Shown piece by piece: positions 13,427 to 28,969 of a stretch of DNA of 64,000 bases. The translations under genes were made by a program, and so were the position numbers. This DNA comes from Candidatus Zixiibacteriota bacterium (lineage in GTDB: Bacteria > Zixibacteria > MSB-5A5 > WJJR01 > JAJRUJ01), in contig JAGVQM010000011.1 in the NCBI GenBank assembly GCA_020051695.1, positions 1 to 64,000 on the forward strand. The letters are read 5' to 3'. The notes beneath the pieces were generated by a model, which was not told where the DNA came from, searched no databases, and saw nothing but the letters and a program-made list of their open reading frames with translations. Positions within the stretch are counted from its first letter, which is position 1, and each line of letters begins with the position of its first letter.

Positions 13427-16400
13427 TTATTTTGCGGGGTTTTTCATGGGCAACGGGCGGGCGGCGTCGGTGGCGGCGCCGATCTTCACCGCGTAGCTGG
13501 TCTTGTTGGCGAGATCCTCATCGGTGACCAGATAGATATCCAGTATGCCCCCGGTACGATATCCCGTCTGCAGGTAATTGATCTCGTCCAGGCACAAACT
13601 CCAGCCGTCCAGCCAGAAGAGCAGTTGCCCGCGTTGCAGCGGCGTCCCGGCGAAATGGACGAGCAGGTCGATATCGCTGTCCGGTTTGGCTGAAATATTT
13701 TTTGTACTGCCGAAGATGTACAGCCCTTTGACCCCGAACAGTTCCGGGTCCAATTGTGCCGCAAGCTGCTGTGCCATCTGCAGCCGCCAGCGGGAGTATT
13801 GCTCGGCCGGTTTTTCCGCTGTGGGCACAACTACCGGCGACGGCTCTTCGATGGCATGCGGCTCGGTCAGGACCGCCATCGCCTGGTTGATCTCGGCGTT
13901 CATCAAAAGCTGCAGCACCCGGCCCCCGGCGGCCTTGGCCACGTCGATTAAGTGGATGGTCCCGGCCAACCCCGCAAAATTGGGCAGGATCTCGGCCAGC
14001 ATATTCGGCGATTGCGTCAGGAACCGTTCGTTGAAGATGATCCCCTCTTCGTCCGGGTACAGCGGCAGGTACCGGATATTGGCCTCGACGAGGTCCTGGA
14101 AAAAATGCGTGCCGAACGAAAGGTCGGGCACATAATTCCCCTGCTGGCGGGCGATCTCGATCAGGACCGCAGCGTTGTTGATTGACGAGTAGGTGACATT
14201 GACCCCGAGTTTGATGTCGCCGCGGCTGCCCCAGCGCCCCGGACCCATGAGAATGAACTGCCGTTTCGGCAGCAGCTTGTTGAGTTTGCTTACGGCGTGT
14301 CCTACCGCCAGCATCTCCTCGCGGCTGGCCAGTTGGCCATACTGCTGCGGATCGACATACACGATATGGGTGATATTCGAAACCCGGCCGTTGGAAATGT
14401 GACGGTCGGCGGAAAAGACGATGCGTTCCCGCGGGATATCCTGCGGGATCGGCGCGGCAATGGTGTCCGAGGTCTGGCTCTGGGGACGGCACTGCAACAG
14501 ATACAGGTCTTTCCCGTCGAAGGCGAATTCAATGTCGACCGGCGTACCGAGCTTATTCTCAAGCAACTTCAAGATAGTGTCGATTTGATTCACGAACGTG
14601 GTGTCGGAAATCAGTCCGTCGAACGTGAGCACCAGTTCACCGTCACTCTGATCGAAATCCATCCCGAACAGGCGGCGGAGACGGCCGTCGACGAACTTGG
14701 AGACGACATGAGCAATACCGGGAATTTCCTCGCCGTGTTTTTCAATGAATTCACCCGCATCAACGGTCTCGAAGGAATTGGTCGACAGGTTGATGACATC
14801 GATCTTTTTCGGCGCATACCGCAGGACCTCGTCGACAGTCGCGTTGACCCGCAAATTCGGCTGGGCCGGGGAGATGAGTACGGGGTAGTCGTCCGAAAGC
14901 CGGTCTACGGCCCGCGTGCCCAATCCGGGGACCAGGCGCAACAAACCGTCATCGCGTTTAATCCGTGGTGACCAGCGATATTCGTTGCGGCTGAACGCTA
15001 CCCCCGCAAAGGTGGGCAGGAAGTAGTGGCCGACGCGCGTCCCGACGACCTCCTGGATCATAATCCCCATTTCCTCGCCGAAGTCGATCAACCCCCGTTC
15101 GGTGCGATACTCGATCGGATCGGGGCCGAACGTGGAAGCGTAGACCTCGGCAATGGCATCGGTGAGCGCCGAGAGGCGTTCCTCTTTCGTGCCCTGGTTG
15201 GCCAGAAACAGACTTTTGTACTTGCCGGAAAAAGCCGCGCCCATCCGGTCCTCAAGCAGACTGGAACTCCGGACGATCAATGGACGGTCGCCGAATTCAT
15301 CCAGCACCGTAGACAGCCCGTTGACAATGTCGGCCGGGAACCGCGAGCGTTTGAACATTTGCACGATGTGCGGGTATTCCTGCCGAATTTGGTCGATCTC
15401 CTTGTATTTCTGTTCGACCACGTCGTCCAGGTCGTTATAGTGCATGAAATACAGAACGACATCCGACGTAATATGCCGGGTTTTCGGAATTTTAATCCCG
15501 GTAAGCAGTTTATCCAGGTCTTCGGTTTTCTGGAGAATATTTTTGGCCAGATACAACCCGGCGCTCTTGCCGCCCAATTTCCCATGGCTATCTGTGGCAT
15601 AGACCAGGTTTTCCAGCAGTTGATAAAAATCGGGCAGGCCGATATAATTTTTGGCGATATTGATAAATTCGAGCTGATCGGACAAAAATCGCCTGATCAA
15701 CGCCACCTCCACGCCCCGGCGGGCCGGGGAATGAAGGTCGAGCGGCGCCGGGCCCATGTGGTGATAGCGCCGCAGCGCATCGGCCACCACCGGCAGCGTC
15801 AGGTGACGATTGACGACCTGGACCAAAAAACTCAGTTTGTCTTCTTGAACCCACTTGTGGACGATGTTGAGAATTTCGGCATCGCGGATATGCTCATCGG
15901 CGATATCAAAGATTGTTTCACTAACGGCATCGGACAACGCAAAAGCGGTCCCACTGTGGGGGCGATTGAGGTCTTCGACGCCCTCCTGGTCTTCAGTCAG
16001 CATACTGTGCGGAGACCCCATCAAGTCCAGTGCCGGCCGGATGCCGTTCCCGCACAGGTGATTGAGCATCTTGTGGGCGATGCGGAAATACAGATCGTGG
16101 TCGGTGGCGCGCAACAAATCGAGGACACACCGCCATTCGCCCTTGCCGGTCCGGGTCGGGCTGCGCCGCGCGCTTTCGACTTCTTTCACTGCCCGGCGCA
16201 TCTGCTGATAACTGATATAATATTCAAGCCGCCTGGCGATGGTATTGATCAGTTTGGTTTCTTCTTTCAGAAACGGCCCGTCGTCCGCCTCCGGCATCTG
16301 CTTGGTATAGTAAACGCTCAGGACGCCCACTTTATGGTCGTGAACTTCGAGGTCGGCATGCTGGGCCCACCGGCTAGGCTGGAAGCCGTCCGGCTCATAT

Positions 16401-16609
16401 TTTTCGCCATACAATTCGATGCAGGGCTGACAGATTTCGCCATACCGCCAGCCCTGCGGTATGGCTTTGAGGATCGCGCGGCAAACCTCACCCGGCTCCA
16501 CGCCGGGGCGGTTGAGGATTTCTTCGATAGCGTACAGGCAGTTTAATTCCTTGGCCCGTTCCTGCAGGGAATTCAGCAGTGTGTCTATCGAATCCTGCCG
16601 TTTGGTCAT
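13427..16609 (-). CDS. GAF / PPDK_N ATP-grasp / nucleotidyltransferase multidomain protein
   Basis: The 1060-residue protein has three parts. Residues about 10-150 look like a GAF-type sensor (ELNCLYAIEEIL...VGVLSVYY...EETKLINTIARRLEYYI). The middle is a PEP-synthase/PPDK N-terminal ATP-grasp region (GGKSAGLYLAK, then LIVRSSSLLEDRMGAAFSG) followed by a shared module containing GPGRWGSRGD. The last about 110 residues are a minimal nucleotidyltransferase (FGSTKNISAKPDSDIDLLV, about 965-985) with the GS...D.D metal site. The swivelling phospho-His and PEP-binding domains are absent, so it cannot be a normal PEP synthase. Its start overlaps the stop of the upstream paralogue by 4 nt, so the two are coupled. 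Confidence 0.8.
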   Translation of the reverse strand: MTKRQDSIDTLLNSLQERAKELNCLYAIEEILNRPGVEPGEVCRAILKAIPQGWRYGEICQPCIELYGEKYEPDGFQPSRWAQHADLEVHDHKVGVLSVYYTKQMPEADDGPFLKEETKLINTIARRLEYYISYQQMRRAVKEVESARRSPTRTGKGEWRCVLDLLRATDHDLYFRIAHKMLNHLCGNGIRPALDLMGSPHSMLTEDQEGVEDLNRPHSGTAFALSDAVSETIFDIADEHIRDAEILNIVHKWVQEDKLSFLVQVVNRHLTLPVVADALRRYHHMGPAPLDLHSPARRGVEVALIRRFLSDQLEFINIAKNYIGLPDFYQLLENLVYATDSHGKLGGKSAGLYLAKNILQKTEDLDKLLTGIKIPKTRHITSDVVLYFMHYNDLDDVVEQKYKEIDQIRQEYPHIVQMFKRSRFPADIVNGLSTVLDEFGDRPLIVRSSSLLEDRMGAAFSGKYKSLFLANQGTKEERLSALTDAIAEVYASTFGPDPIEYRTERGLIDFGEEMGIMIQEVVGTRVGHYFLPTFAGVAFSRNEYRWSPRIKRDDGLLRLVPGLGTRAVDRLSDDYPVLISPAQPNLRVNATVDEVLRYAPKKIDVINLSTNSFETVDAGEFIEKHGEEIPGIAHVVSKFVDGRLRRLFGMDFDQSDGELVLTFDGLISDTTFVNQIDTILKLLENKLGTPVDIEFAFDGKDLYLLQCRPQSQTSDTIAAPIPQDIPRERIVFSADRHISNGRVSNITHIVYVDPQQYGQLASREEMLAVGHAVSKLNKLLPKRQFILMGPGRWGSRGDIKLGVNVTYSSINNAAVLIEIARQQGNYVPDLSFGTHFFQDLVEANIRYLPLYPDEEGIIFNERFLTQSPNMLAEILPNFAGLAGTIHLIDVAKAAGGRVLQLLMNAEINQAMAVLTEPHAIEEPSPVVVPTAEKPAEQYSRWRLQMAQQLAAQLDPELFGVKGLYIFGSTKNISAKPDSDIDLLVHFAGTPLQRGQLLFWLDGWSLCLDEINYLQTGYRTGGILDIYLVTDEDLANKTSYAVKIGAATDAARPLPMKNPAK

Positions 16610-18360
16610 CGCCGGATCACTCCTCGTCCCGTGCGCCCATCAACACGAATATCCAACGGTCTGTCAAGTGTAATCCACCGCACATATTCGGTTTCGGCCT
16701 GCGGCGGCTGCAGCTTGAGCCAGTCCCAATCGATGAGGTGCCGCTCGTGGTGCGGTACGGAAAAATACATGATTTGAAAACTGGTCATGTTATGAAAAAA
16801 ATGTGAGCCCTGGCTCAGAGTAACATACATCTCCGGCAGTGTTGTTTCGACAATCACCCTGGCCCCCGAAATCTGGCCGAAATCGACGGGCACGCCGTAA
16901 CTCGGATCGGAGGTGGCCCAGCGCCCGAAGCCCAGGAGCAGGTAGGGACGGTGTTGACCGACCAGTTTCCGATTGATCTCCTCAATCTGCCGGGCCATCA
17001 GCAGTGTCTGTTGTGTGGAAAACGTTTCCGGCTTAAGGTAGACGACGTCCCGAACCGTGTGGAGTATTCCGTTTCCCAGGACATGTTCCGAGGACAACAT
17101 AACTTCTTCGCCGTCGAACAACGCCGGTTCGAGTTCCACTTTTTCCTGCGAGACCACCATGGGCCGGACCTGCAGGAACCCCAGATATGCGGGGGTACCG
17201 TGTTCCGGATCGAGTGTCGCGGCCAGTTCGATTTCCACCGGGCCGCCGACCTCAGTTTCGCAAATATGCAGCAGGGCCTTGCAGGCCTCATTCAGCTTGA
17301 CCAGTTCGTAATCCAGGATCGGCGCGAAGGTCACGATGCGGGGCCCCCGGATGTCCATCCCGACTTCGAGACGATCGTTTTGTGCATCATACGTCGAAAC
17401 AAGATGAGTAAGAACCCCGTCGGCCTCGGCCTCAGCCAGGCCGTATTTATTCAGATATTCAGTTTCCCGGATGGGGTCATAGGCCGGCGGCCGGCCCATG
17501 TTTACCGCCCAGAATTCACTCTGGGTCTGATTGATCAGATCTCGCGGAGAATTGTAGGGCGGGTACGTGCGGGGACGGGCCGGGGAGTAAGTCCAGGCCC
17601 GGCCGTCATCGACAATACTCTTGCCCAGCCCCAGCGCCAGATCGATGACGCCGTCTTCCGGTTTGGCATGCCCGACCGGATAAAAATTGTATGAGCGCAC
17701 GACGCCGGAAATCTCCGGATAAAACCGGTCGCCGTGCCGCCTGCCGACTACCGCCTGAATGATCACCGCCATTTTTTCCTCGGCGGTCGTGTGGGTCGTG
17801 GCCTGCATGTAGTTTTTGGCGCCGTGAAAGAAGGTCGAGGCATAGACGAATTTTACCGCCTCCACCAGTTTGTGGAACCGTGTATCGGTGTCGTGCTGAT
17901 TGTTCGGCAGCATCTTGGTCGTATAGACGCTGGCGAACGGCTGGTACATGGCGTCTTCCAGAAAACTGGACGAACGAACAGCCAGCGGCGTGTGGATTTG
18001 GGTCATAAGGGAGCGGAGGTCGCCCACCAGCTCGGCCGGGAGACGGGCCTGCTGAAAGGCGAGGGCGATCTGATCGTCCCGCAGTTGCGAGAAGGCAATA
18101 TCCGCCAGGTCGTTTTGTTCGATAAATGCATCGAACATATCGGTGGCGATTACCGTCAGCGTGGGGATGCAGATCGCGACGCTGGGAATCGGCCGCGCTG
18201 CACAATAGTCGGCGAGGACATCTTTCATCCGGGCCAGCCCGTGGGCCTTCCCGCCGATCGAGCCGTCACCGATTTGTGTGAATTGCTGTTTGCCGTCAAA
18301 AAAATGTCGGTCGAAGCGGGGCAGGAGCCCGCCCGGGTCACGGTTTGTTGCATCCGACAT
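16606..18360 (-). CDS. PPDK_N-type ATP-grasp domain protein, paralogue of the downstream gene
   Basis: The 584-residue protein has the N-terminal ATP-grasp fold of pyruvate phosphate dikinase (IGGKAHGLARMKDVL and LAVRSSSFLEDAMYQPFASVY). It shares the downstream protein's second module (GFGRWATSDPSYGVP and SQGSHFFHNM versus GPGRWGSRGD and SFGTHFFQDL). The phospho-His and PEP/pyruvate barrel domains of full enzymes are missing. It is the first gene of a two-gene unit, overlapping the next by ATGA. A role in phosphoryl transfer or signalling is inference. A terminator separates it from gdhA. Confidence 0.8.
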   Translation of the reverse strand: MSDATNRDPGGLLPRFDRHFFDGKQQFTQIGDGSIGGKAHGLARMKDVLADYCAARPIPSVAICIPTLTVIATDMFDAFIEQNDLADIAFSQLRDDQIALAFQQARLPAELVGDLRSLMTQIHTPLAVRSSSFLEDAMYQPFASVYTTKMLPNNQHDTDTRFHKLVEAVKFVYASTFFHGAKNYMQATTHTTAEEKMAVIIQAVVGRRHGDRFYPEISGVVRSYNFYPVGHAKPEDGVIDLALGLGKSIVDDGRAWTYSPARPRTYPPYNSPRDLINQTQSEFWAVNMGRPPAYDPIRETEYLNKYGLAEAEADGVLTHLVSTYDAQNDRLEVGMDIRGPRIVTFAPILDYELVKLNEACKALLHICETEVGGPVEIELAATLDPEHGTPAYLGFLQVRPMVVSQEKVELEPALFDGEEVMLSSEHVLGNGILHTVRDVVYLKPETFSTQQTLLMARQIEEINRKLVGQHRPYLLLGFGRWATSDPSYGVPVDFGQISGARVIVETTLPEMYVTLSQGSHFFHNMTSFQIMYFSVPHHERHLIDWDWLKLQPPQAETEYVRWITLDRPLDIRVDGRTGRGVIRR

Positions 18361-18380
18361 CGGATGTTTACCTCTTGGGT

Positions 18381-18418
18381 AAAAAATCAGAAAGCGAGAT
18401 CATCGTGATCTCGCTTTC
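18381..18418 (-). terminator. Rho-independent terminator after the glutamate dehydrogenase gene
   Basis: A perfect 13-bp stem with a 3-nt loop (GAAAGCGAGATCA / TGATCTCGCTTTC, 18390-18418) is followed on the minus strand by TGATTTTTT. It sits about 47 nt past the gdhA stop and ends that unit before the PPDK_N gene pair. Confidence 0.85.
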
Positions 18419-18464
18419 CATTTGTGTATGTCGCTGACGGGCGGCTGCCCGCCCGCAGTACCTC

Positions 18465-19751
18465 TTATGTCCAACCCCGGTCTTTGCAGGCCTGGGCCAC
18501 GCGACTGATGGCGATATAATACGCCGCGTCGCGCATGAATAATTTCCGTTTGCGCGCCAGTTCGCTGACAGCCTGAAATGCCGAGGTCATTTTCACGTCC
18601 AACTTGCCCAGGACTTCGTCTTTTTCCCAATAATAATTCATGTTGCTCTGCACCTGCTCAAAGTAACTGCAGGTTACGCCGCCGGCGTTGGCCAGGAAAT
18701 CGGGGATCAGGAAAATCCCGCGCGCGGCGATTTTCTGGTCTGCGTCCGGGGTCGTCGGCCCATTGGCGCCCTCGGCGATCAATTTGACGCTTGTGGCGAT
18801 GTGCTCGACATTGCTCACGGTAATCTGGTTTTCCAGCGCGGCGGGGATCAGGAGATCCACGGGTTGTTCCAACCAGGCCGAGCCGGGCAGGATTTCATAA
18901 CCGGCCTCGCGGGCTTTGTCCTTGTTGATGCCGCCGAAGCGGTCGGTAAATTTCAATAGTTCGTCGGGGTCGATGCCCGATTCTTTCTTGAAACCGTATG
19001 ACTTCTGATCGTTCTGGTCCCAGCAGGAAACGCAGATGACCTTGCCGCCGATCTGCTGATACAAGCGGATGGCAAACTGGGCGACATTGCCGAATCCCTG
19101 TACGCTGGCTGTCGTCTGTTTAATCTCGACACCCAATTCCTTGAACGCTTCCCGCACGGTGAAAATAACCCCATAGCCGGTCGCTTCGGTGCGGCCCAGC
19201 GATCCGCCCATACCAACCGGTTTGCCGGTGATCAGGCCGGGGCTTTTTTGCCCGTAAATGACCTCGTATTCATCGAGCATCCACAACATATGCTGCGCAC
19301 TGGTCATCACGTCCGGAGCAGGAACGTCAACCTGGGCGCCGATGAACTTGGCCATCTGGCGGATCCATCCCCGGCAGATTTGTTCTTCTTCGCGGCTGCT
19401 CAGGTTATGCGGATCACAAATCACGCCGCCCTTGCTTCCGCCGAGCGGAATATCGACCACCGCGCATTTCCAGGTCATCCACATCGACAGCGCCCGGACC
19501 GTGTCGATTGTTTCCTGCGGGTGAAAACGGATCCCGCCTTTTCCGGGTCCCCGGGCATCATTGTGCTGGACGCGAAAACCACGGAATATTTTCGCCGTGC
19601 CGTCATCCATCCGGACGGGAATGCTGAATTGATACTCCCGCATTGGCTGGCGCAACAATTGTCGAGTCGCGGCATCGAGATTCAAGACTTCTGCGGCCTT
19701 GTCGAACTGCGCTTGCGCCATGGCAAACGGATTATAGGACTTATCGTCCAT
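18465..19751 (-). CDS. gdhA: Glu/Leu/Phe/Val-type glutamate dehydrogenase
   Basis: The 428-residue enzyme interconverts glutamate with 2-oxoglutarate and ammonia. The catalytic-Lys motif is in the conserved substrate region (PLGGSKGGVICDP), preceded by GPGKGGIRFHP. The C-terminal Rossmann domain carries VQGFGNVAQF and ends in IPAALENQI and EGANGPTTPDAD. Length matches the hexameric family. The ATG at 19751 has GGGAGAG in front and gives MDDKSYNPFAMAQAQF, a usual N-terminus. It is transcribed alone, with its own promoter and terminator. Cofactor preference (NAD or NADP) was not determined. Confidence 0.92.
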   Translation of the reverse strand: MDDKSYNPFAMAQAQFDKAAEVLNLDAATRQLLRQPMREYQFSIPVRMDDGTAKIFRGFRVQHNDARGPGKGGIRFHPQETIDTVRALSMWMTWKCAVVDIPLGGSKGGVICDPHNLSSREEEQICRGWIRQMAKFIGAQVDVPAPDVMTSAQHMLWMLDEYEVIYGQKSPGLITGKPVGMGGSLGRTEATGYGVIFTVREAFKELGVEIKQTTASVQGFGNVAQFAIRLYQQIGGKVICVSCWDQNDQKSYGFKKESGIDPDELLKFTDRFGGINKDKAREAGYEILPGSAWLEQPVDLLIPAALENQITVSNVEHIATSVKLIAEGANGPTTPDADQKIAARGIFLIPDFLANAGGVTCSYFEQVQSNMNYYWEKDEVLGKLDVKMTSAFQAVSELARKRKLFMRDAAYYIAISRVAQACKDRGWT

Positions 19752-19796
19752 GGGTCTCTCCCTTTTTTCCCATACGCTTCTCAATACTCGTGTGGT

Positions 19797-20543: not shown

Positions 20544-21014
20544 ATGGTGGCTTGGGAAAAAAATCACGTAGTCGGGCCGAAAGATAATCCCGAATGGCAT
20601 GAACCGGTTGTTTCCATCGGCACGGCTGCCAAAAAAGTCGGGTTGTCTGTCTCGGCGCTCCGCAAATATGAGCATGAGGGATTGTTGCTTTTTTTTCGGA
20701 CCCCTTCGGGCCGGCGTTTGTTGTCCCAAGCCGACATCAAGCGGATTACGGTCATCCAGAATCTGATTAATCGACTGGGTTTGAATCTCGAGGGGATTCG
20801 GCGGCTGCTGGCGATTTTACCCTGTTGGAAATTGAAACCCTGTCCAACCAGGCAGCGCGACACCTGCCCGGCCTATTTGGACAGCGTGAAACCGTGCTGG
20901 ATGCTCAGGGATTCGGGGCGTGACGACGGGGATGATTGCTGCCGTGAATGCAATGTGTACCGTTACGGTGCGTATTTTGCGGAGGATATCAAGACCCTGT
21001 TGCATACTGAATAA
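20544..21014 (+). CDS. MerR-family regulator with Cys-rich C-terminal domain
   Basis: The 156-residue protein has a MerR/HspR-type winged helix at about 22-92 (VSIGTAAKKVGLSVSALRKYEHEGLL, with RTPSGRRLLSQADI and a long dimer helix). The C-terminus carries seven Cys (94, 100, 108, 118, 132, 133, 136) in PCW..KPC, TCPAY, PCW and CCRECNVY segments, a pattern suited to an Fe-S cluster or metal site. No strong ribosome site is seen, but no internal start exists before the domain. It lies at the head of the HdrDE-like locus and is its likely redox- or metal-responsive regulator. Confidence 0.8.
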   Translation: MVAWEKNHVVGPKDNPEWHEPVVSIGTAAKKVGLSVSALRKYEHEGLLLFFRTPSGRRLLSQADIKRITVIQNLINRLGLNLEGIRRLLAILPCWKLKPCPTRQRDTCPAYLDSVKPCWMLRDSGRDDGDDCCRECNVYRYGAYFAEDIKTLLHTE

Positions 21015-21113
21015 CCGGCAGACGGGATGGATCGACCCGTGGAGGACGCCGCAAGGCGCAAAAAGAGCATAAATAACTTTGGTATAGACCGAGCACATGG
21101 TGGAGGAAAACGA

Positions 21114-22013
21114 ATGACAGTCTTGCACATCCTGGCGTATGCATCGGTGGCCGTGTTCATTGTTGCCGTCGCTGTGCGGGCGATACGCCTGGCGACCACT
21201 CCCGTGCACTTGCGCTGGGAGTTGTATCCGGTAGCCCACGAGAAGGACAAAGTGAGCTATGGCGGTTCGTATTTCGAAGAGAAAGACTGGTGGACCAAGT
21301 CACAGAAGAAATCGCTGTTCGGCGAATTGAAAGTGATGGTCCCGGAAATTCTGCTGCTCAAGGGGGTCTGGGAACACAATAAGCCCCTGTGGTTATGGTC
21401 GTTCCCGATGCACTTTGGCTTATACCTGGTGATCGGCTTTGCCGCCCTGGTACTGGTTACCGCGTTTACCGGCACGCAGGACGGCCTCGGCGCAGTCCTC
21501 GAGCAGATCGGGTTAGCCGTCGGGCTCGTCGGTTACGTCCTGGGCACAGTCGGGGCGCTTGGTCTGTTCGGTTATCGCTTGTTCAGCCGGAAGACCCGTG
21601 GTTTTACGCCGCCGTCGGCATATCTCAATATCTTGTTCCTTTTGGCGTTGTTCGCTACCGGGTTGTATATGTTCGCCGGTGTGGACCATCCCTCCGGAGC
21701 GCTGGCCGCTTTCGGCCGGGATGTTTTCACCCTCGGTGCCGGGGCGGCCCCGGCCGGGGCGGTGGCGGCACACCTGGGAGTGGCGCTGTTGTTCATGCTG
21801 TATCTGCCGTTTACCCATATGACTCACTTTTTCACCAAATATTTCACCTATCACTCAGTCCGCTGGAACGACGAACCGAATCATCCGGGTTCCAAACTTG
21901 AAGCGGCGATCCAGCGCCAGCTGGCCTACCCGGTCAGCTGGTCGGCCAAACATCTCAGGGCGGACGGGAAAAAGAACTGGGCGGATATTGCGACGGACAC
22001 GGAGGTGGAATGA
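21114..22013 (+). CDS. NarI/HdrE/DsrM-like b-type cytochrome membrane subunit
   Basis: The 299-residue protein has about five membrane helices and a cytoplasmic loop (SYGGSYFEEKDWWTKSQ). Conserved His lie within helices or at their ends (WSFPMHFGLYL; AHLGVALLFMLYLPFTHMTHF), as in NarI-type subunits that bind two haem b and react with quinone. The ATG at 21114 has GGAGG 8 nt upstream. It overlaps the following HdrD-like gene by ATGA, matching the HdrE-HdrD or DsrM-DsrK pair arrangement. Its job is probably electron transfer between the quinone pool and the HdrD-like partner. Confidence 0.85.
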   Translation: MTVLHILAYASVAVFIVAVAVRAIRLATTPVHLRWELYPVAHEKDKVSYGGSYFEEKDWWTKSQKKSLFGELKVMVPEILLLKGVWEHNKPLWLWSFPMHFGLYLVIGFAALVLVTAFTGTQDGLGAVLEQIGLAVGLVGYVLGTVGALGLFGYRLFSRKTRGFTPPSAYLNILFLLALFATGLYMFAGVDHPSGALAAFGRDVFTLGAGAAPAGAVAAHLGVALLFMLYLPFTHMTHFFTKYFTYHSVRWNDEPNHPGSKLEAAIQRQLAYPVSWSAKHLRADGKKNWADIATDTEVE

Positions 22014-23626
22014 CCATGGCCGACAAAGTCAAAGTCAAGGATATCAGCAAACATCCCGAACGGCAACTGACGCACATCGATCCACAGGACCTGATGCCGC
22101 TTCCTCCGCCGTACGATAAAGTCGACGAGGAGCCGAAGTGGAAAGCCATCAAACAAGAGCAGAAAGATGCTGTGGTCAGCAATCTCGATGATACGATCGC
22201 CCTCGGCTTTCCGAAACCCAAGACGAAGGAAGAAGAGGACGAACTGGTCCGGAAATTCCTGTCGGGCCTGGAAAAACTACTGACCAGGGAAAATAACTGG
22301 ACTTTTCTGCAGCCGCTTCTGCTGTCACTGGAACATTGCGCCAAGTGCCAGACCTGCAACGACGCCTGCCCGATCTACGAAGCCAGCGGACATAATGATG
22401 TCTATCGGCCGACGTACCGCTCGGAGGTCTGGCGGCGGATTGTGGCGAAGTATATCAAGCCCGGCGGAAAATTCTTTGGCGCATTCAAGCAGGGCGATAT
22501 TGAGTTGAACTGGACCACGGTATCACGGCTGATGGAATTATCATATCGCTGCACGCTGTGCCGCCGCTGCGCCCAGACCTGCCCGATCGGCGTGGACAAC
22601 GGCCTGATCACCCATGAACTGCGTAAGGTCTTCAGCCAGGAAATGGGGATTGCGGCCAAGGAAATCCACGAGAAAGGGTCGGTGCAACAGCTCAAGGTCG
22701 GGTCCTCGACGGGGATGACGCCGCTGGTGGTCAAAGACAATATCGAGTTTATCGACGAGGACATGTTCGACAAGACGGGGATAAAAATCGAAACCCCGTG
22801 GGATAAAGAGGGCGCCGACGTCCTGCTGATCCACAACGCCGGTGAAATCCTGGCCTGGCCGGAAAACCCGGGGGCGTTTGCCGTGATCCTGGAGGCCGCA
22901 GGCATCTCCTGGACTCTTTCCAGCGATGTGGTGGCTTACGACGGGATCAATTACGGGCTGTGGTACGACGATTTCCAGCTCGCGCGGGTGGCGATTAAAC
23001 ACGCTGAGGCGGCCAAAAAACTGAAGGTGAAAAAAATCGTCATCGGCGAGTGCGGGCACGCCCATAAAGCGCTCACCGTAATCGCCGACCGCGTGTTGCA
23101 GGGCGATTTGAATGTCCGTCGCGAGAGCGCGATGACCCTCCTGGAAGACATTGTTTTCTCGGGCAAGATCAAATTCGACCCTTCAAAAAACGATTTTCCG
23201 GTGACCCTGCATGACCCATGCAACATGGTGCGGCTAATGGGTATTGTCGAACCGCAACGGCGGATCCTGCGGTACCTGGCACCGCAGTTCCGGGAGATGA
23301 CACCGCATGGCGTGGATAACTACTGCTGCGGCGGCGGAAGCGGTTTTGCGATCATGTCGCCATTCAACTTCCAGGACTGGCGACTTTCGATTTCGGGGCG
23401 CAAAAAACTCAAACAGGTCCTCGATGCCTTTGCCGATTGCCCGGGGCCGGAGATCAAAAAATACCTGTGCGCCCCCTGCTCCAACTGCAAAGGGCAGTTG
23501 CGCGATTTGTTCCAATACTATAACGTATGGGAAAAATCGGGTATCCTGTATGGTGGACTGGTCGAGTTGATTGTCAACGCGATGGTGGACGTCAAAGAAC
23601 CGTTCATCGAATGGGAGTTCCATTAA
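22010..23626 (+). CDS. HdrD/DsrK-like Fe-S oxidoreductase
   Basis: The 538-residue cytoplasmic protein has two classical 4Fe-4S motifs (C110, C113, C116, C120 and C181, C184, C187, C191) followed by two CCG (Cys-Cys-Gly) domains. The first CCG domain includes HDPCNMVRL and NYCCGGGSG; the second ends in CAPCSNCKG. CCG domains hold the non-cubane cluster used for disulfide reduction in HdrB/HdrD. An about 90-residue charged N-terminal extension precedes the clusters. It is coupled to the NarI-like gene and followed by a free receiver-domain gene. It probably moves electrons between membrane quinone and a thiol/disulfide; the substrate is unknown. Confidence 0.87.
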   Translation: MTMADKVKVKDISKHPERQLTHIDPQDLMPLPPPYDKVDEEPKWKAIKQEQKDAVVSNLDDTIALGFPKPKTKEEEDELVRKFLSGLEKLLTRENNWTFLQPLLLSLEHCAKCQTCNDACPIYEASGHNDVYRPTYRSEVWRRIVAKYIKPGGKFFGAFKQGDIELNWTTVSRLMELSYRCTLCRRCAQTCPIGVDNGLITHELRKVFSQEMGIAAKEIHEKGSVQQLKVGSSTGMTPLVVKDNIEFIDEDMFDKTGIKIETPWDKEGADVLLIHNAGEILAWPENPGAFAVILEAAGISWTLSSDVVAYDGINYGLWYDDFQLARVAIKHAEAAKKLKVKKIVIGECGHAHKALTVIADRVLQGDLNVRRESAMTLLEDIVFSGKIKFDPSKNDFPVTLHDPCNMVRLMGIVEPQRRILRYLAPQFREMTPHGVDNYCCGGGSGFAIMSPFNFQDWRLSISGRKKLKQVLDAFADCPGPEIKKYLCAPCSNCKGQLRDLFQYYNVWEKSGILYGGLVELIVNAMVDVKEPFIEWEFH

Positions 23627-23703
23627 TCGGTGCGGCACGGCCGCGCATGACAGCAAACGGGGAATGGAAAAACGGGAAGTACTGGACATAGCGAGGCAGA
23701 ACG

Positions 23704-24111
23704 ATGAACGATAAAACGGCAGGGCCGGCCGGGACCGGCCGGAAAATCCTGATTGTCGATGACGAACCCGATGTCGTGACGTATTTGACCACCCTGCTGG
23801 AGGACAACGGGTACGCGACGATCACCGCGGCCGACGGTAGGGAAGGGTTTGCCAGGGCCAAGACCGAGCGGCCGGACCTGATCACGCTGGATATCTCCAT
23901 GCCCGAGGAGTCGGGGGTCAAGGCTTTCCGGCAGTTACAGGGCGAACCGGCAACGAAAGGGATTCCGATTATCATTGTCACCGGGATCAGCGCCGATTTC
24001 GAACGGTTCATCCGCAGCCGCAAGCAGGTCGAGCCGCCGGCGGCGTACTTTGAAAAACCGATCGATCCGGAGAAATTTCTGGAAACGATCCGCAAAATTC
24101 TGGTGAAATAG
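23704..24111 (+). CDS. Stand-alone response-regulator receiver protein
   Basis: The 135-residue protein is one CheY-like receiver: acidic pair D19-D20 (ILIVDDEPD), phospho-acceptor D63 (LITLDISMP), conserved Thr (IIIVTG) and Lys in FEKPID. There is no output domain. It closely resembles the receiver fused to the second HdrD-like protein (both share PDLITLDISMP and a PP..(Y/F)..EKPI ending). It lies 77 nt after the first HdrD-like gene and before a terminator. It is probably the phosphorelay input for the first oxidoreductase pair. Confidence 0.9.
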   Translation: MNDKTAGPAGTGRKILIVDDEPDVVTYLTTLLEDNGYATITAADGREGFARAKTERPDLITLDISMPEESGVKAFRQLQGEPATKGIPIIIVTGISADFERFIRSRKQVEPPAAYFEKPIDPEKFLETIRKILVK

Positions 24112-24167
24112 CCGCAGAGATTATCGACTATAACGATCCAGATTCGCTGACGGCGAAAAGCGCATCC

Positions 24168-24205
24168 GACGACCCGCCATAATCATGACGGGCCGTCATT
24201 TTTTT
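24168..24205 (+). terminator. Rho-independent terminator after the receiver gene
   Basis: A 13-nt arm (GACGACCCGCCAT, 24168-24180) pairs with ATGACGGGCCGTC (24185-24197) at 11 of 13 positions around a 4-nt loop, followed by a run of seven T (24199-24205). It closes the MerR to receiver unit. Confidence 0.8.
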
Positions 24206-24481
24206 CGCCTTTTCGCCAAATTGTGCTGGAATTCTGCTGAAATAATATTACTATAATAATTAGTGTAATAAGGGGATTCCTCACCCGGTTGCGGAAGATG
24301 TCGCCGGTGACTGGGTGCGGGACGCTGACCGAAAGAATGAAAATGGCGGTATTTACCTACCAAATCAATAAGAAAAATATGATATCAAGATAGATACTGT
24401 CACCTGCGGCAACCGGCCGGTGCACTCTGCGTACGGGCCGCCGGTCATTGGCACCGGACTAGAGAGATCGAGGTGGAGATC
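24206..24481 (+). promoter_or_regulatory. Leader region of the second module
   Basis: This gene-free stretch follows the terminator and precedes the macro-domain gene. It holds an AT-rich core with a perfect TATAAT at 24252-24257, though no clear -35 is in register. With 24112-24205 it makes about 370 nt without a gene. I see no known riboswitch. Confidence 0.3.
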
Positions 24482-25018
24482 ATGGGCCAGGAGAAGAAAA
24501 TCAACAATTCCACGGTGCACCTGCTCCGGGGCGATATCGCTGATCTGGAGATCGAGGCCTTTGTCTATTACGCCCGCGAGGACCTGGCCCTGGGTTCGGG
24601 GTTCGGCGGCGCGATTGCCGTCCGGGGCGGCCCCACCGTTCAGGAAGAGCTGAACAAGCTGGCCCCCGTCAAATTGACCGAAGCGGTGATTACCGCTGCC
24701 GGAGAAATGAAGGCCGATAATATCATTCATGCGGTGGGGCCAAAATTCCAGGAGGAGAACCTGGAAGCAAAACTGCGCGCGACAATCCTGAATGCCCTGA
24801 AACTCGCCGATGAGAAGCACCTCAAACGGATAGCTTTCCCGCCGATGGGGACCGGCTTTTACGGGGTGCCGCTGGAGCTGAGCGCTGCGGTGATGTTTGA
24901 GGTTTTTGCTGAATACCTCTCGGGGAATACCGGTATTGAAGAAGTGATCATCTGCCTGATGGATTCGCGGGAGTATGCATCCTTTGCGACCCGCCTGTCC
25001 GCTGCAGCGGTGTACTAG
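24482..25018 (+). CDS. Macro-domain protein (ADP-ribose-binding fold)
   Basis: The 178-residue protein is essentially one macro domain: VHLLRGDIADLEIEAFVYYA (ligand-binding loop 1), GSGFGGAIAVRGG, NIIHAVGPKF and the Gly-rich loop MGTGFYGVPLE. The domain binds ADP-ribose or O-acetyl-ADP-ribose and sometimes removes ADP-ribose from proteins. The usual Asn of the NAAN segment is replaced by Y-A here, so catalysis is uncertain. ATG 24482 is preferred (AGGTGG upstream) over GTG 24473. It directly precedes the second NarI-like/HdrD-like pair by 10 nt, suggesting co-transcription. Confidence 0.82.
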   Translation: MGQEKKINNSTVHLLRGDIADLEIEAFVYYAREDLALGSGFGGAIAVRGGPTVQEELNKLAPVKLTEAVITAAGEMKADNIIHAVGPKFQEENLEAKLRATILNALKLADEKHLKRIAFPPMGTGFYGVPLELSAAVMFEVFAEYLSGNTGIEEVIICLMDSREYASFATRLSAAAVY

Positions 25019-25028
25019 AGGAGGAACA

Positions 25029-25721
25029 ATGAGCGATTTACTCCATTTTTCAGAGCATACCCTGCAGGAGGCGGCCCTGGGGATCATGGCGGTAGTCTAC
25101 ACGCTGCGTTTGCTCTGGCTGTTTCATTATAAGCCGGGCGGCGACCGGCAGGCGCCGACCGGCCTGCCCGACACCTCGCCGCGCCGCGGCATCATCTATT
25201 CCTGGTTCAATGTGGCCAAGCCGTGGGCGATGGAAAGCACACGCACCAAATTGTTTTTCTACCTGCAGTTTGTGGTTTTTCACCTGGGGGTCGTCTCGGC
25301 CATCGGGCTGTCGTTCGTCATACCTTACGCGCCCGGGTGGTTGAACTGGCAGCCGTTGGTCGTGGTCCTGCGAATAAGTATCGGCCTGGCCTGTCTGGTC
25401 GGGTGTTACCGGATCATTCGCCGGATGTCCGACAGGTATATCCGGGCGATCAGCACCCCGGATGATTATTTCTCATTGATCCTGCTGACCGTCTGGTTTG
25501 CCTTTGCCTTTCTGGCGGTGCCCAACCGCCTCGAGCAGGGCGAGTGGCAGCTCCTGACGTATTTCATCCTGACGGCGTTTTTCCTGATTTACGTGCCTTT
25601 CAGCAAGATCTCGCATTACCTGTATTATCCGATCACTCGCTACTATTTCGGCAAGACCATGGGTCATCGCGGGGGATACCCGTTGCGCGGAACAGTCCGA
25701 CCGAAAACTTCGCGCGGTTGA
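25029..25721 (+). CDS. Second NarI/HdrE-like b-type cytochrome membrane subunit
   Basis: The 230-residue protein has about five membrane helices. His residues in FHLGVVSAIGL and SKISHYLYYP fit haem b ligation as in NarI-type subunits. GAGGAGG lies just upstream of ATG 25029. The order (membrane subunit, then Fe-S oxidoreductase) repeats the first module, but this copy is shorter and sequence similarity between the two membrane proteins is low. It should form the quinone-facing anchor for the receiver-fused HdrD-like protein. Confidence 0.8.
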   Translation: MSDLLHFSEHTLQEAALGIMAVVYTLRLLWLFHYKPGGDRQAPTGLPDTSPRRGIIYSWFNVAKPWAMESTRTKLFFYLQFVVFHLGVVSAIGLSFVIPYAPGWLNWQPLVVVLRISIGLACLVGCYRIIRRMSDRYIRAISTPDDYFSLILLTVWFAFAFLAVPNRLEQGEWQLLTYFILTAFFLIYVPFSKISHYLYYPITRYYFGKTMGHRGGYPLRGTVRPKTSRG

Positions 25722-25740
25722 ATTCCTGATGGAGCAGAAC

Positions 25741-27498
25741 ATGGGCGACAGAAAACGATCATATAAAGCAGAAAAAGTCATCGAACGGTTGGGTAAAAAG
25801 CTCAACCGACAAATCGTCGGGTCGCTGGCCGCGTGTGTCCATTGCGGGATGTGCACCCGGTCATGCCATTATGTCCTGACCAATCCCGACGACCCGACCT
25901 ATGCCCCGGCCTACAAGGCCGACAAGATCCGCAAATTGTTCAAACGGCATTATGACTGGACCGGCCGCGTGCTCCCCTGGTGGGTCGGCGCAAAGAGCAT
26001 CTATACCGACGATGAACTGGAAGAGCTCAAGGATACGGTCTTCGGCAAGTGCACCAACTGCCGCCGCTGTTCGATCAATTGCCCGATGGGTGTCGATTAT
26101 GCGACATTCAACCGCATGGCACGCGGGCTGCTGGTGTCGGTGGGCGTGATGCCCGAAGGCGTGGCCGTGGTCAGCAAAGACCAGTGGGAACTCGGCAACC
26201 AGATGGGCGTCCTCAAGGAGGACTACATTGAGACCCTCGAATGGATGTCCGACGAACTCGCCACGGAGCTCGAGGTGCCCGGCCCGCTGATCCCCATTGA
26301 TAAGGAAGATTGCGCTGTTGTGTATTCGATCAACCCGCGCGAAGTCAAGTACGACCCGCGGACCATCGCCGATGCGGCAAAAATTTTCTACGCTGCCGGG
26401 GAAGACTGGACCATGCCCAGCGAGGGCTGGGATATGACCAATTTCGGCCTGTTTTCCGGCGACGACGACCTCGGCGGCGCGGTGGCCAAACGGCTCTACG
26501 AGAAAGTTGTCGAATTGCGCGGGAGGACGCTGGTGATCTCCGAATGCGGCCATGGCTACCGTTCCACGCGCTGCGAAGGTCCCAACTGGGGCAAGGTCGA
26601 TGTGCCGTTTGTGATGGAGTCGTCGGTCAATACCATGTTGCGCTATATCAAGGACGGTCGCATCAAAGTGGACAAAACGAAAAACACCGTCCCGGTCACC
26701 TTCCATGATTCGTGCAACAATGCCCGCAGTTGCGGGCTGTTCGAGGAACCGCGTGAACTGTTGCAACTGGTCTGCACCGATTTCCGCGAGATGTACCCCA
26801 ACCGCAACGAAAATTATTGCTGCACCGGTGGCGGCGGGGCCATGTCCATGTCTGAATACACCAATCGCCGCCTGAAATCCGGGAGAGTGAAGGCCGATCA
26901 GTTGGCCGAAACCGGCGCCAAAACGGTGGTCACGTCCTGCCACAACTGTGTGGACGGTCTGACCGACGTCATCCGCCATTATAAATTGGGTATGGACGTT
27001 ACCCAGCTGGTCAATCTGGTGGCCAATGCGCTGATCCTCCCCCCGAAACCGGTGGTGGTCCCCGAACTGCCCGAGGAGGTCGTTCCTGTGGCAGAAGGAC
27101 TCGAATTGGCCGGTAAAACGATCCTGGCGGTCGATGATGAACCGGATATCCTGGTGTTCATCGCCGCGGTGCTCGAGGACCACGGCGCGACGGTGATCCA
27201 GGCCCACAATGCCGATGTCGGTATCGAGCTGGCCCGCCGGGAAAAACCCGATTTGATCACGCTGGACATTTCCATGCCCGGCAAAGACGGCGGTTTTGTG
27301 TTCGAGGCCATCCGCAATGATCCCGAGCTCCAGCGGACGCCGGTGTGTATCATTTCCGGCAAGCCGGAGCTGCGGCGGCTGATTTACGACCGCGCGGTCC
27401 CGCCGCCGGAGGGATTTTTGGAAAAACCGATCAGTGAGGAGACACTGTTGTTGAACGTGCGCAAGATACTGGAACTGGCGCATGTAAAAAAATCGTAA
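25741..27498 (+). CDS. HdrD-like Fe-S oxidoreductase fused to a response-regulator receiver
   Basis: The 585-residue protein carries two 4Fe-4S motifs (C32, C35, C38, C42 and C104, C107, C110, C114), then two CCG-type domains (HDSCNNARSCG; NYCCTGGGG; CHNCVDG). After a Pro/Glu-rich linker it ends in a complete CheY-like receiver (about 458-580) with D465-D466, phospho-acceptor D509 in LITLDISMP, and EKPI. ATG 25741 follows GGAG at a good distance; ATG 25729 is possible. The frame is continuous with no sign of sequencing error, so the fusion is real in this sequence. It implies that phosphorylation could control, or report on, electron flow through the enzyme. Confidence 0.88.
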   Translation: MGDRKRSYKAEKVIERLGKKLNRQIVGSLAACVHCGMCTRSCHYVLTNPDDPTYAPAYKADKIRKLFKRHYDWTGRVLPWWVGAKSIYTDDELEELKDTVFGKCTNCRRCSINCPMGVDYATFNRMARGLLVSVGVMPEGVAVVSKDQWELGNQMGVLKEDYIETLEWMSDELATELEVPGPLIPIDKEDCAVVYSINPREVKYDPRTIADAAKIFYAAGEDWTMPSEGWDMTNFGLFSGDDDLGGAVAKRLYEKVVELRGRTLVISECGHGYRSTRCEGPNWGKVDVPFVMESSVNTMLRYIKDGRIKVDKTKNTVPVTFHDSCNNARSCGLFEEPRELLQLVCTDFREMYPNRNENYCCTGGGGAMSMSEYTNRRLKSGRVKADQLAETGAKTVVTSCHNCVDGLTDVIRHYKLGMDVTQLVNLVANALILPPKPVVVPELPEEVVPVAEGLELAGKTILAVDDEPDILVFIAAVLEDHGATVIQAHNADVGIELARREKPDLITLDISMPGKDGGFVFEAIRNDPELQRTPVCIISGKPELRRLIYDRAVPPPEGFLEKPISEETLLLNVRKILELAHVKKS

Positions 27499-27523
27499 AC
27501 CACTGATCGAACGGGACAGGAAT

Positions 27524-28969
27524 ATGGCCACGCCCTACAAGGACTATTTCGACCTGATGCCCTGTTATGTGACCGTGCAGGACCGGGAGCTGAAACTTGT
27601 CGATGCCAATCAGCGGTTCCGCGATGGTTTTGGCGAAATTGACGGCCGGTACTGCTATCAGGTCTACAAGCACCGCTCGGAAAAATGCGAGATCTGCCCG
27701 GTGGAGCGGACATTCCGCGACGGTCTGAACCATAGTAACGAAGAAAATGTCACCTGCCTCGATGGTACGGAAGTCTCGGTGTTGGTCAATACGACACCGA
27801 TCCGAGGCGGCGACGGCAAAATCATCGCCGTCATGGAGATGTCCACCGACATCACCGACATCAAAAACCTCCAGCGGCAGATGCGCGACAGCCGGCGGCG
27901 TTACCGCACACTGTTCGAGTCCGTCCCCTGCCACATCTCGATCCAGGACAGCGACCTGCGCGTGATCGAGGCCAACCGCATGCACCGCGAGGCCTTCGGC
28001 CAGGGACTGGGGCGGAAGTGTTACGAAATATACAAACACCGCACGGAGGAATGCACACCGTGTGTGGTCCGGGATACATTTCACGACGGCCAGGTCCATT
28101 TGCACGAGGAAGTGGTCACCGACCAGCACGGGCACCGGATGAATGTGATGGTGTATACCGGGCCGCTGTTCGACGCGGACGGCAATATCGAAGCGGTCAT
28201 CGAGATGAGCGCGGACATCACGCAGATCCGGCAGCTCCAGTCGCAGCTTACCTCCATCGGGATGCTGATCAGCACGATTTCGCACGGGATCAAGGGGTTG
28301 ATGACCGGACTGGACGGCGGGGCGTACCTCCTCAATACCGGGCTGAAAAAGGGCGATCAGGAGCGGGTGACCAGGGGCTGGGACATGGTCCAGCGCAATA
28401 TGGGCCGGATCCGCAGCATGGTTTTTGACCTGTTGTATTATGCCAAGGACCGCGAGCTGGAAATCGAGACCGTCCGGGCGGTCCTCATCGCCGAGGAAAC
28501 CGTCCGGTTGTTTACCGACAAGGCCGACAAACTGAATATTGATTTGAAATGCGATTTCCATCCGGACACCGGGTCGTTTGACGTCGATCCCAAGGCCGTG
28601 CATACGATGTTGACCAATCTGTTGGAAAATGCCCTGGATGCCTGCCGGACCGACAAGGATAAACCACGGCATGAAGTCGGCTTCAACAGTTATCGCGAAG
28701 ATAAGAATGTCGTTTTCCGGATCAGCGATAACGGCATCGGCATGGACCGGGAGACCAAGGAAAAGGTGTTCAGCTTGTTCTTTTCCTCGAAGGGTACTGA
28801 AGGGACTGGGCTGGGCTTGTTTATTGCCAACAAAATCGCGATGAAACACGGCGGCAAGATCGATATCGAATCCACCCCGGGGGCCGGTACATGTTTCTGG
28901 GTCAGCATTCCGGCCCAGTTGCCGCAGGCAGGGATTGTCGAATCATATGTTCCCGAAGTACAGGAATAG
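27524..28969 (+). CDS. Soluble PAS-PAS sensor histidine kinase with CxxC motifs
   Basis: The 481-residue protein has two PAS domains (about 5-112 and 125-235), each with a matching Cys insert: C44...C55EIC58PV and C166...C177TPC180VV. A HisK dimerisation helix follows with H254 (TISHGIKGLM), then an ATPase domain with N, G1 and G2 boxes (LLENALDAC, DNGIGMD, GTGLGLFI). No membrane helix or signal peptide is present, so it should act in the cytoplasm. It lies 25 nt after the receiver-fused oxidoreductase and is its natural kinase partner. The Cys pairs suggest redox or Fe-S sensing, which is inference. Confidence 0.88.
   Translation: MATPYKDYFDLMPCYVTVQDRELKLVDANQRFRDGFGEIDGRYCYQVYKHRSEKCEICPVERTFRDGLNHSNEENVTCLDGTEVSVLVNTTPIRGGDGKIIAVMEMSTDITDIKNLQRQMRDSRRRYRTLFESVPCHISIQDSDLRVIEANRMHREAFGQGLGRKCYEIYKHRTEECTPCVVRDTFHDGQVHLHEEVVTDQHGHRMNVMVYTGPLFDADGNIEAVIEMSADITQIRQLQSQLTSIGMLISTISHGIKGLMTGLDGGAYLLNTGLKKGDQERVTRGWDMVQRNMGRIRSMVFDLLYYAKDRELEIETVRAVLIAEETVRLFTDKADKLNIDLKCDFHPDTGSFDVDPKAVHTMLTNLLENALDACRTDKDKPRHEVGFNSYREDKNVVFRISDNGIGMDRETKEKVFSLFFSSKGTEGTGLGLFIANKIAMKHGGKIDIESTPGAGTCFWVSIPAQLPQAGIVESYVPEVQE

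Follow-up and report, generated by a model that had tools for sequence, protein, structure and literature searches.

Membrane subunits of the NarI/HmcE type exchange electrons with menaquinone, and CCG proteins handle thiol/disulfide chemistry. For Tmc, one of the closest described systems, DsrC has been proposed as the recipient of electrons, and the cytoplasmic redox partner of Tmc/Hmc-type complexes has been described as unknown, with DsrC merely suggested (PMC4215793). Tmc and Hmc genes are found next to genes for kinases, response regulators and Usp in D. multivorans and D. vulgaris (PMC5109826). In the Desulfobacterota locus L228, all four proteins of a tmcABCD operon exceed their NCBIfam cut-offs (TmcA, 151; TmcB, 820; TmcC, 334; TmcD, 588). 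The operon also encodes Usp, a receiver, a DVU0259 receiver (193 bits) and a kinase whose Cys motif and H-box match those of the kinase described below.

Here we describe a related gene cassette in a 64,000-nucleotide stretch of DNA (the window), contig C25 of the 3.53-Mb genome of a Zixibacteria MAG. Our leading reading, which we hold at about even confidence, is that it encodes a membrane electron-transfer module for dissimilatory sulfite/sulfate reduction under two-component control, in which electron flow would be tuned by phosphorylation.

Gene content of the locus

Eight genes, all on the + strand, were identified within positions 20544-28969 from the ORF listing, Pfam and NCBIfam (Table 1); all eight lie, in the same order, at the coordinates given by the first-pass annotation. 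A gap of 361 bases with a terminator-like hairpin separates the group ending in RR1 from the group beginning with the macro-domain gene, so the genes probably form two transcription units, MerR-MemM-HdrK-RR1 and Macro-MemE-HdrF::REC-HK.

Table 1. Features of the locus, in window coordinates
Feature	Positions	Strand	Basis and remarks
MerR-family regulator, Cys-rich C-terminus	20544..21014	+	Pfam MerR_1 1.9e-14
MemM, DsrM-like/NarI-type membrane subunit	21114..22013	+	Pfam Nitrate_red_gam 22.9 bits, at cut-off
HdrK, DsrK-like iron-sulfur protein	22010..23626	+	NF045796 DsrK 339 bits (cut-off 400)
RR1, free CheY-like receiver, DVU0259-like	23704..24111	+	PF00072 1.2e-21; NF045717 114.5 bits (cut-off 160)
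Terminator-like hairpin and T run	24185..24206	+	Between the two gene groups; hairpin scan count not above shuffles
Macro-domain protein	24482..25018	+	PF01661 1.5e-25; GTG at 24473 is a possible alternative start
MemE, HmcE/TmcC-like membrane subunit	25029..25721	+	NF045716 48 bits, NF045723 45.5 bits, below cut-offs
HdrF::REC, HmcF/TmcB-like iron-sulfur protein fused to receiver	25729..27498	+	HmcF 329 bits, TmcB 309 bits, PF00072 7.7e-16
Receiver domain of HdrF::REC	27121..27456	+	Residues 465-576; D469, D470, D513, S543, K566
HK, soluble PAS-PAS histidine kinase	27524..28969	+	Pfam PAS_4 and HATPase_c; H254

Catalytic and metal-binding residues are intact throughout the parts. The MemM ORF opens at 21027, with conserved sequence beginning near 21114; its His residues are conserved, as are two His of MemE. 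HdrK and HdrF each carry two 4Fe-4S motifs and one intact CCG motif (the second in HdrF), the first CCG being degenerate in both, and Foldseek matches for HdrF::REC include LutA, HdrB and receivers. The AF2 model of HK is organized as PAS-PAS-DHp-CA (mean pLDDT 83.9) and matches WalK, NifL and HK853 in Foldseek. Relatives of the MerR protein conserve PCW..C, C, PCW and C..C motifs. The macro domain has YYAR where MacroD-type hydrolases have NAAN (alignment to 2dx6 and MacroD1); the catalytic Asn is thus missing, setting it apart from MacroD-type ADP-ribosyl hydrolases, and is not conserved among 91 homologues.

NCBIfam scores against described families all fall short of the cut-offs. HdrF reaches 329 bits for HmcF (cut-off 750) and 309 for TmcB (735), MemE 48 for HmcE (275) and 45.5 for TmcC (240), HdrK 339 for DsrK (400), and MemM 21 for DsrM NF038037 (300), so the parts are relatives rather than members of these NCBIfam families, and membership in Tmc, Hmc and DsrMK was dropped. 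HdrK does have the two 4Fe-4S motifs and CCG motif of the DsrK type. Membership in HdrDE was dropped as well, since it needs two CCG motifs and only the second is complete. The two proteins labelled HdrD-like in the first-pass annotation belong to the DsrK and HmcF/TmcB branches. The receivers are likewise below the cut-off of 160 for NF045717 (DVU0259 family), the fused one scoring 75 bits and RR1 114.5.

The nearest named relative of the host genome is a Zixibacteria MAG (83-84% identity in HdrF::REC). The dsr locus of the host lies on a separate contig, C36, and comprises dsrA (594 bits), dsrB, dsrN, dsrL, dsrC, dsrM, dsrK (721 bits), dsrJ and dsrO; because the true dsrK sits there, HdrK is its paralogue. 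Host DsrL has a YRR motif, which points to DsrL-2, a form reported with reductive-type DsrAB and also with some oxidative-type DsrAB (PMC7596348). Presence of dsrD in the host is unconfirmed: an 83-aa ORF at L247:4591-4842 occupies the usual position between dsrB and dsrN but has no Pfam match. An RsbRD_N-domain protein is encoded between dsrC and dsrM on C36 (L247:8773-9333), as in several Zixibacteria relatives.

Conservation and association with sulfite reduction genes

Relatives were collected by a search of the class (132 genomes) and from GTDB contigs (161 relatives, 80 kept, 64-83% identity); nearly all are MAGs. The core, macro-MemE-HdrF::REC-PAS-PAS kinase, usually followed by a free receiver, was found with its order conserved at 99 distinct loci in about 15 phyla. 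Record titles name Zixibacteria, Acidobacteriota, Myxococcota, Thermodesulfobacteriota, Planctomycetota, Calditrichota, Gemmatimonadota, Electryoneota, LCP-89, Ignavibacteriota, Bacteroidota, Hydrogenedentota, Poribacteria, Elusimicrobiota and others, though such MAG labels may be partly wrong. Where the contig is long enough for scoring, MemE is present in 90/90 loci, the macro domain in 84/85 and the kinase in 80/84; a free receiver immediately follows the kinase in 61/75 and occurs somewhere in the locus in 65/75. Of 93 fused homologues, 90-93 retain the acidic pair, D513, T/S543 and K566, and 91-93 retain each Cys of the iron-sulfur and CCG motifs. Receivers and kinase are thus conserved beside the HdrD-like genes, the point on which the first-pass annotation had staked its proposal. 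Its further suggestion that all six parts form one unit is not supported and was dropped: the DsrMK-like pair MemM-HdrK is found in only 11 of the 41 loci whose contigs extend 6 kb or more to each side, and MerR beside the cassette in 8/99, making both optional additions to the core.

Over 60 complete loci, part-by-part distances correlate for all six parts (r 0.36-0.80; six pairs tested, with 0/2000 permutations as high). In trees, the fused HdrF cores fall into a single clade, adjacent to one linked to DsrC and another of Tmc/Hmc type, and HdrK forms its own clade within the DsrK branch. One genome, G121, has kept macro-MemE-HdrF and is missing the fused receiver, the kinase and the free receiver; dsrA is absent too, and this joint loss is consistent with a functional tie.

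Other neighbors were also noted. Upstream of the macro gene in L112 and about 31 other loci is a BldC/excisionase-type HTH protein whose middle part is Cys-rich (CWEYF...C..C) and whose C-terminus, by eye, resembles a degenerate receiver. Positions 13427-19784 of the window (- strand) encode glutamate dehydrogenase and two PPDK_N-type proteins, which recur near the HdrF cassette in G087/G088 (L043, L048) and near HdrK in G083 (L290).

Gene context links the core to sulfite reduction. In some Zixibacteria and Syntrophaceae, it is embedded in the dsr operon, with dsrC on one side and dsrMKJO on the other. The genes run dsrA-dsrB-dsrN-dsrL-dsrC-[macro-MemE-HdrF::REC-HK]-X179 gene-dsrM-dsrK-dsrJ-dsrO in the Zixibacteria loci L045, L083 and L065 (the last ending with its contig), and dsrA-dsrB-dsrN-dsrC-[macro-MemE-HdrF::REC-HK-REC-MemM-HdrK]-dsrM-dsrK-dsrJ-dsrO in L104, L119 and L147; L131 matches L104 up to the contig end, and L136 is similar. 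NCBIfam confirms dsrA, dsrB, dsrC and dsrK in L045 and dsrM in L104. Across the class, dsrA was detected in 30/34 cassette genomes versus 21/98 others (Fisher p 4.9e-12, kinship ignored). Three of the four cassette genomes without detected dsrA are 73-81% complete. The cassette is not essential, given the 21 dsr-bearing genomes of the class in which none was detected, and the location of cassette (C25) and dsr locus (C36) on different contigs in the host speaks against the tie.

The closest receiver-free relatives of HdrF (39-42% identity) are encoded just downstream of dsrC and MemE in eleven genomes, an order checked in L074, L076, L252 and L253. Because these nearest unfused relatives sit in dsrC-membrane-HdrF operons, DsrC is the predicted thiol partner of MemE-HdrF. 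The thiol/disulfide chemistry assumed in the first-pass annotation is supported, as DsrC-type chemistry, by these operons and by the placement within dsr operons. MemM-HdrK is also found next to dsrC, in L302 and L305. In an Elusimicrobia MAG with no kinase at the locus, a double-domain DsrC-like protein (two DsrC repeats) is encoded right after the cassette (L144:11757-12503).

Kinase, receivers and a proposed mechanism

The kinase family has 80 members in the class at E <= 1e-45. For sixty-five, a listed HdrD-type gene is no more than 8 kb away (29 fused HdrF, 8 HdrK, 28 Hmc-like), and the same holds for four more in the stretches examined, so at least 69/80 are linked, where the chance of such proximity is about 2.4% for each. 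The remaining eleven are mostly near contig ends, with that of G023 a real exception. The family is therefore nearly confined to the surroundings of HdrD-type oxidoreductases, which makes the regulation of such complexes directly testable with purified proteins. This linkage, together with conservation of the core, strongly supports the wiring of kinase, receiver and HdrD-type protein. H254 is present in 84/84 kinases, C44, C55, C58, C166, C177 and C180 in 83-84 of 84, and C136 in 82/84; the same seven Cys do not vary in the kinases neighboring HdrK and Hmc-like complexes either.

Elsewhere in the class, HdrK is followed by receiver-kinase or receiver-kinase-receiver in 8/20 loci. One operon (L287:4746-11122) reads Rrf2-MemM-HdrK-HEAT-RR-HK-RR, its kinase having an N-terminal hydrophobic stretch. 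In another locus, L306 (G077:C4:64000-80000), an Hmc-like operon (HmcF/DsrK-like, HmcE-like, Fe-S, HmcC-like) has no gene for a c-type cytochrome; a PAS-PAS kinase of the same kind and two receivers lie downstream, and a PAS-sigma54 activator upstream.

The two receivers are, as previously noted, similar to each other: identity between RR1 and the fused receiver is 40.6%, compared with no more than 33% to 30 others in the genome, and they share PDLITLDISMP and a PP...EKP(I) signature. The phospho-site of RR1 is intact, and orthodox two-component residues are present in both partners (H, N and G boxes of the kinase; D, T/S and K of the receivers). RR1 follows HdrK in the window, yet nests in the tree with the post-kinase receivers of relatives. 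Fused receivers form one side of a single branch, and the fusion to HdrF has a single origin. With regard to putative phosphotransfer from HK to these receivers, a shared alpha1 profile was observed. The AF2 model of HdrF::REC (21 sequences, pLDDT 59.6) gives no reliable receiver-enzyme interface.

We propose that MemE and HdrF act as a quinone-facing cytochrome and cytoplasmic iron-sulfur pair that would connect the menaquinone pool with a thiol/disulfide carrier of the DsrC type by electron transfer. Through its conserved PAS Cys, the soluble kinase would sense the redox or sulfur state of the cytoplasm and phosphorylate the HdrF-fused receiver and probably the free receiver, both being putative partners. 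Phosphorylation would alter HdrF activity or docking, leading to post-translational tuning of electron flow into the DsrC/Dsr pathway; we infer this gating, its direction and its effect. The DsrMK-like pair in the window would be a further, optional module of this type, and the macro domain a nucleotide input, predicted to bind ADP-ribose-type ligands without hydrolyzing them.

The oxidoreductase could instead be the sensor rather than the target, with MemE-HdrF reporting the redox state of quinone or DsrC to the kinase Cys, the free receiver relaying the signal onward (to another kinase, or to Usp- or MerR/Rrf2-linked expression) and the fused receiver serving as kinase dock or phosphate sink. 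The invariant kinase Cys, the usual presence of the free receiver, and the Rrf2-type, MerR and HTH-Cys regulators that recur upstream of the cassette in relatives all fit such a role, but reporting would not call for a complete electron-transfer chain, intact CCG included, within a dsr operon. We regard a sensor role as rather unlikely and prefer phosphorylation control because, through the fusion, the site of phosphorylation is part of the enzyme.

An ordinary transcriptional or housekeeping two-component system, merely co-transcribed with the oxidoreductase and with a fusion lacking regulatory output on the enzyme, is more improbable still. The kinase and receiver families are common and MerR and Rrf2 genes are nearby; however, Pfam and NCBIfam detect no DNA-binding output domain in either receiver, the single-origin fusion retains its active-site residues, and the kinase family occurs almost solely beside HdrD-type genes. 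A structural or dimerization role for the fused receiver, independent of phosphorylation, seems very unlikely, given conservation of the acidic pocket, Asp, Thr/Ser and Lys in at least 90/93 homologues, even if the weak AF2 model without an interface and the 4/84 loci without an adjacent kinase would suit it.

Receiver and oxidoreductase may be tethered merely for co-localization. A bolder form of phosphorylation control, offered tentatively and with less confidence than the module itself, is a direct phospho-switch on respiration, in which a kinase dedicated to HdrD-type oxidoreductases would set menaquinone-DsrC electron flow without transcription in sulfite reducers of about 15 phyla. The conserved gene order, often within sulfite reduction loci, suggests that the uncultured bacteria carrying the cassette may regulate sulfur respiration by direct phosphorylation of their electron-transfer machinery. 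The cassette thereby points to a post-translational control layer on sulfur respiration; the main texts of two recent dsr gene surveys, which leave such a layer unmentioned, contain neither 'response regulator' nor 'histidine kinase'.

Comparison with known systems

The cassette works like HdrDE in its cytochrome b and CCG iron-sulfur architecture, but has one intact CCG, is bacterial, and lies in a context pointing to DsrC rather than CoM-S-S-CoB. Likeness to DsrMK/DsrMKJOP is seen in HdrK, which falls in the DsrK branch by score and tree and shares an operon with these genes in Syntrophaceae; HdrK differs as a paralogue below the cut-off that is accompanied by receivers and a kinase. With Hmc, the cassette shares an HmcE/HmcF-like pair and, in relatives, recurring upstream Rrf2-type regulators (the D. 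vulgaris hmc operon presumably carries Rrf1/Rrf2), whereas it is without the 16-haem cytochrome and HmcB/C/D, has a fused receiver and scores well below 750.

The closest likeness is to Tmc, where, as in L228, a membrane subunit and an HdrD-type protein are encoded beside a Cys-motif PAS kinase and DVU0259-type receivers. Unlike Tmc, the cassette is without TmcA and TmcD (no TmcA type II cytochrome c3 gene was found among the ORFs of 20544-28969), has a receiver fused to the iron-sulfur protein and a macro domain, scores far below the TmcB/TmcC cut-offs, and is spread over many phyla and into dsr operons. The first-pass annotation knew of no described system with this composition, a view overtaken by the homologous kinase, receivers and Usp of the L228 tmcABCD operon and by the published adjacency (PMC5109826). 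We found no published description of the HdrF-receiver fusion in the open-access literature. Because tmc operons hold a homologous kinase and receivers, the cassette is a new branch of a theme already visible there and not unprecedented; it ties the Tmc/Hmc-type protein family to DsrC through operon structure, and what is new is the single-origin receiver fusion, the macro domain, the placement in dsr operons and the breadth.
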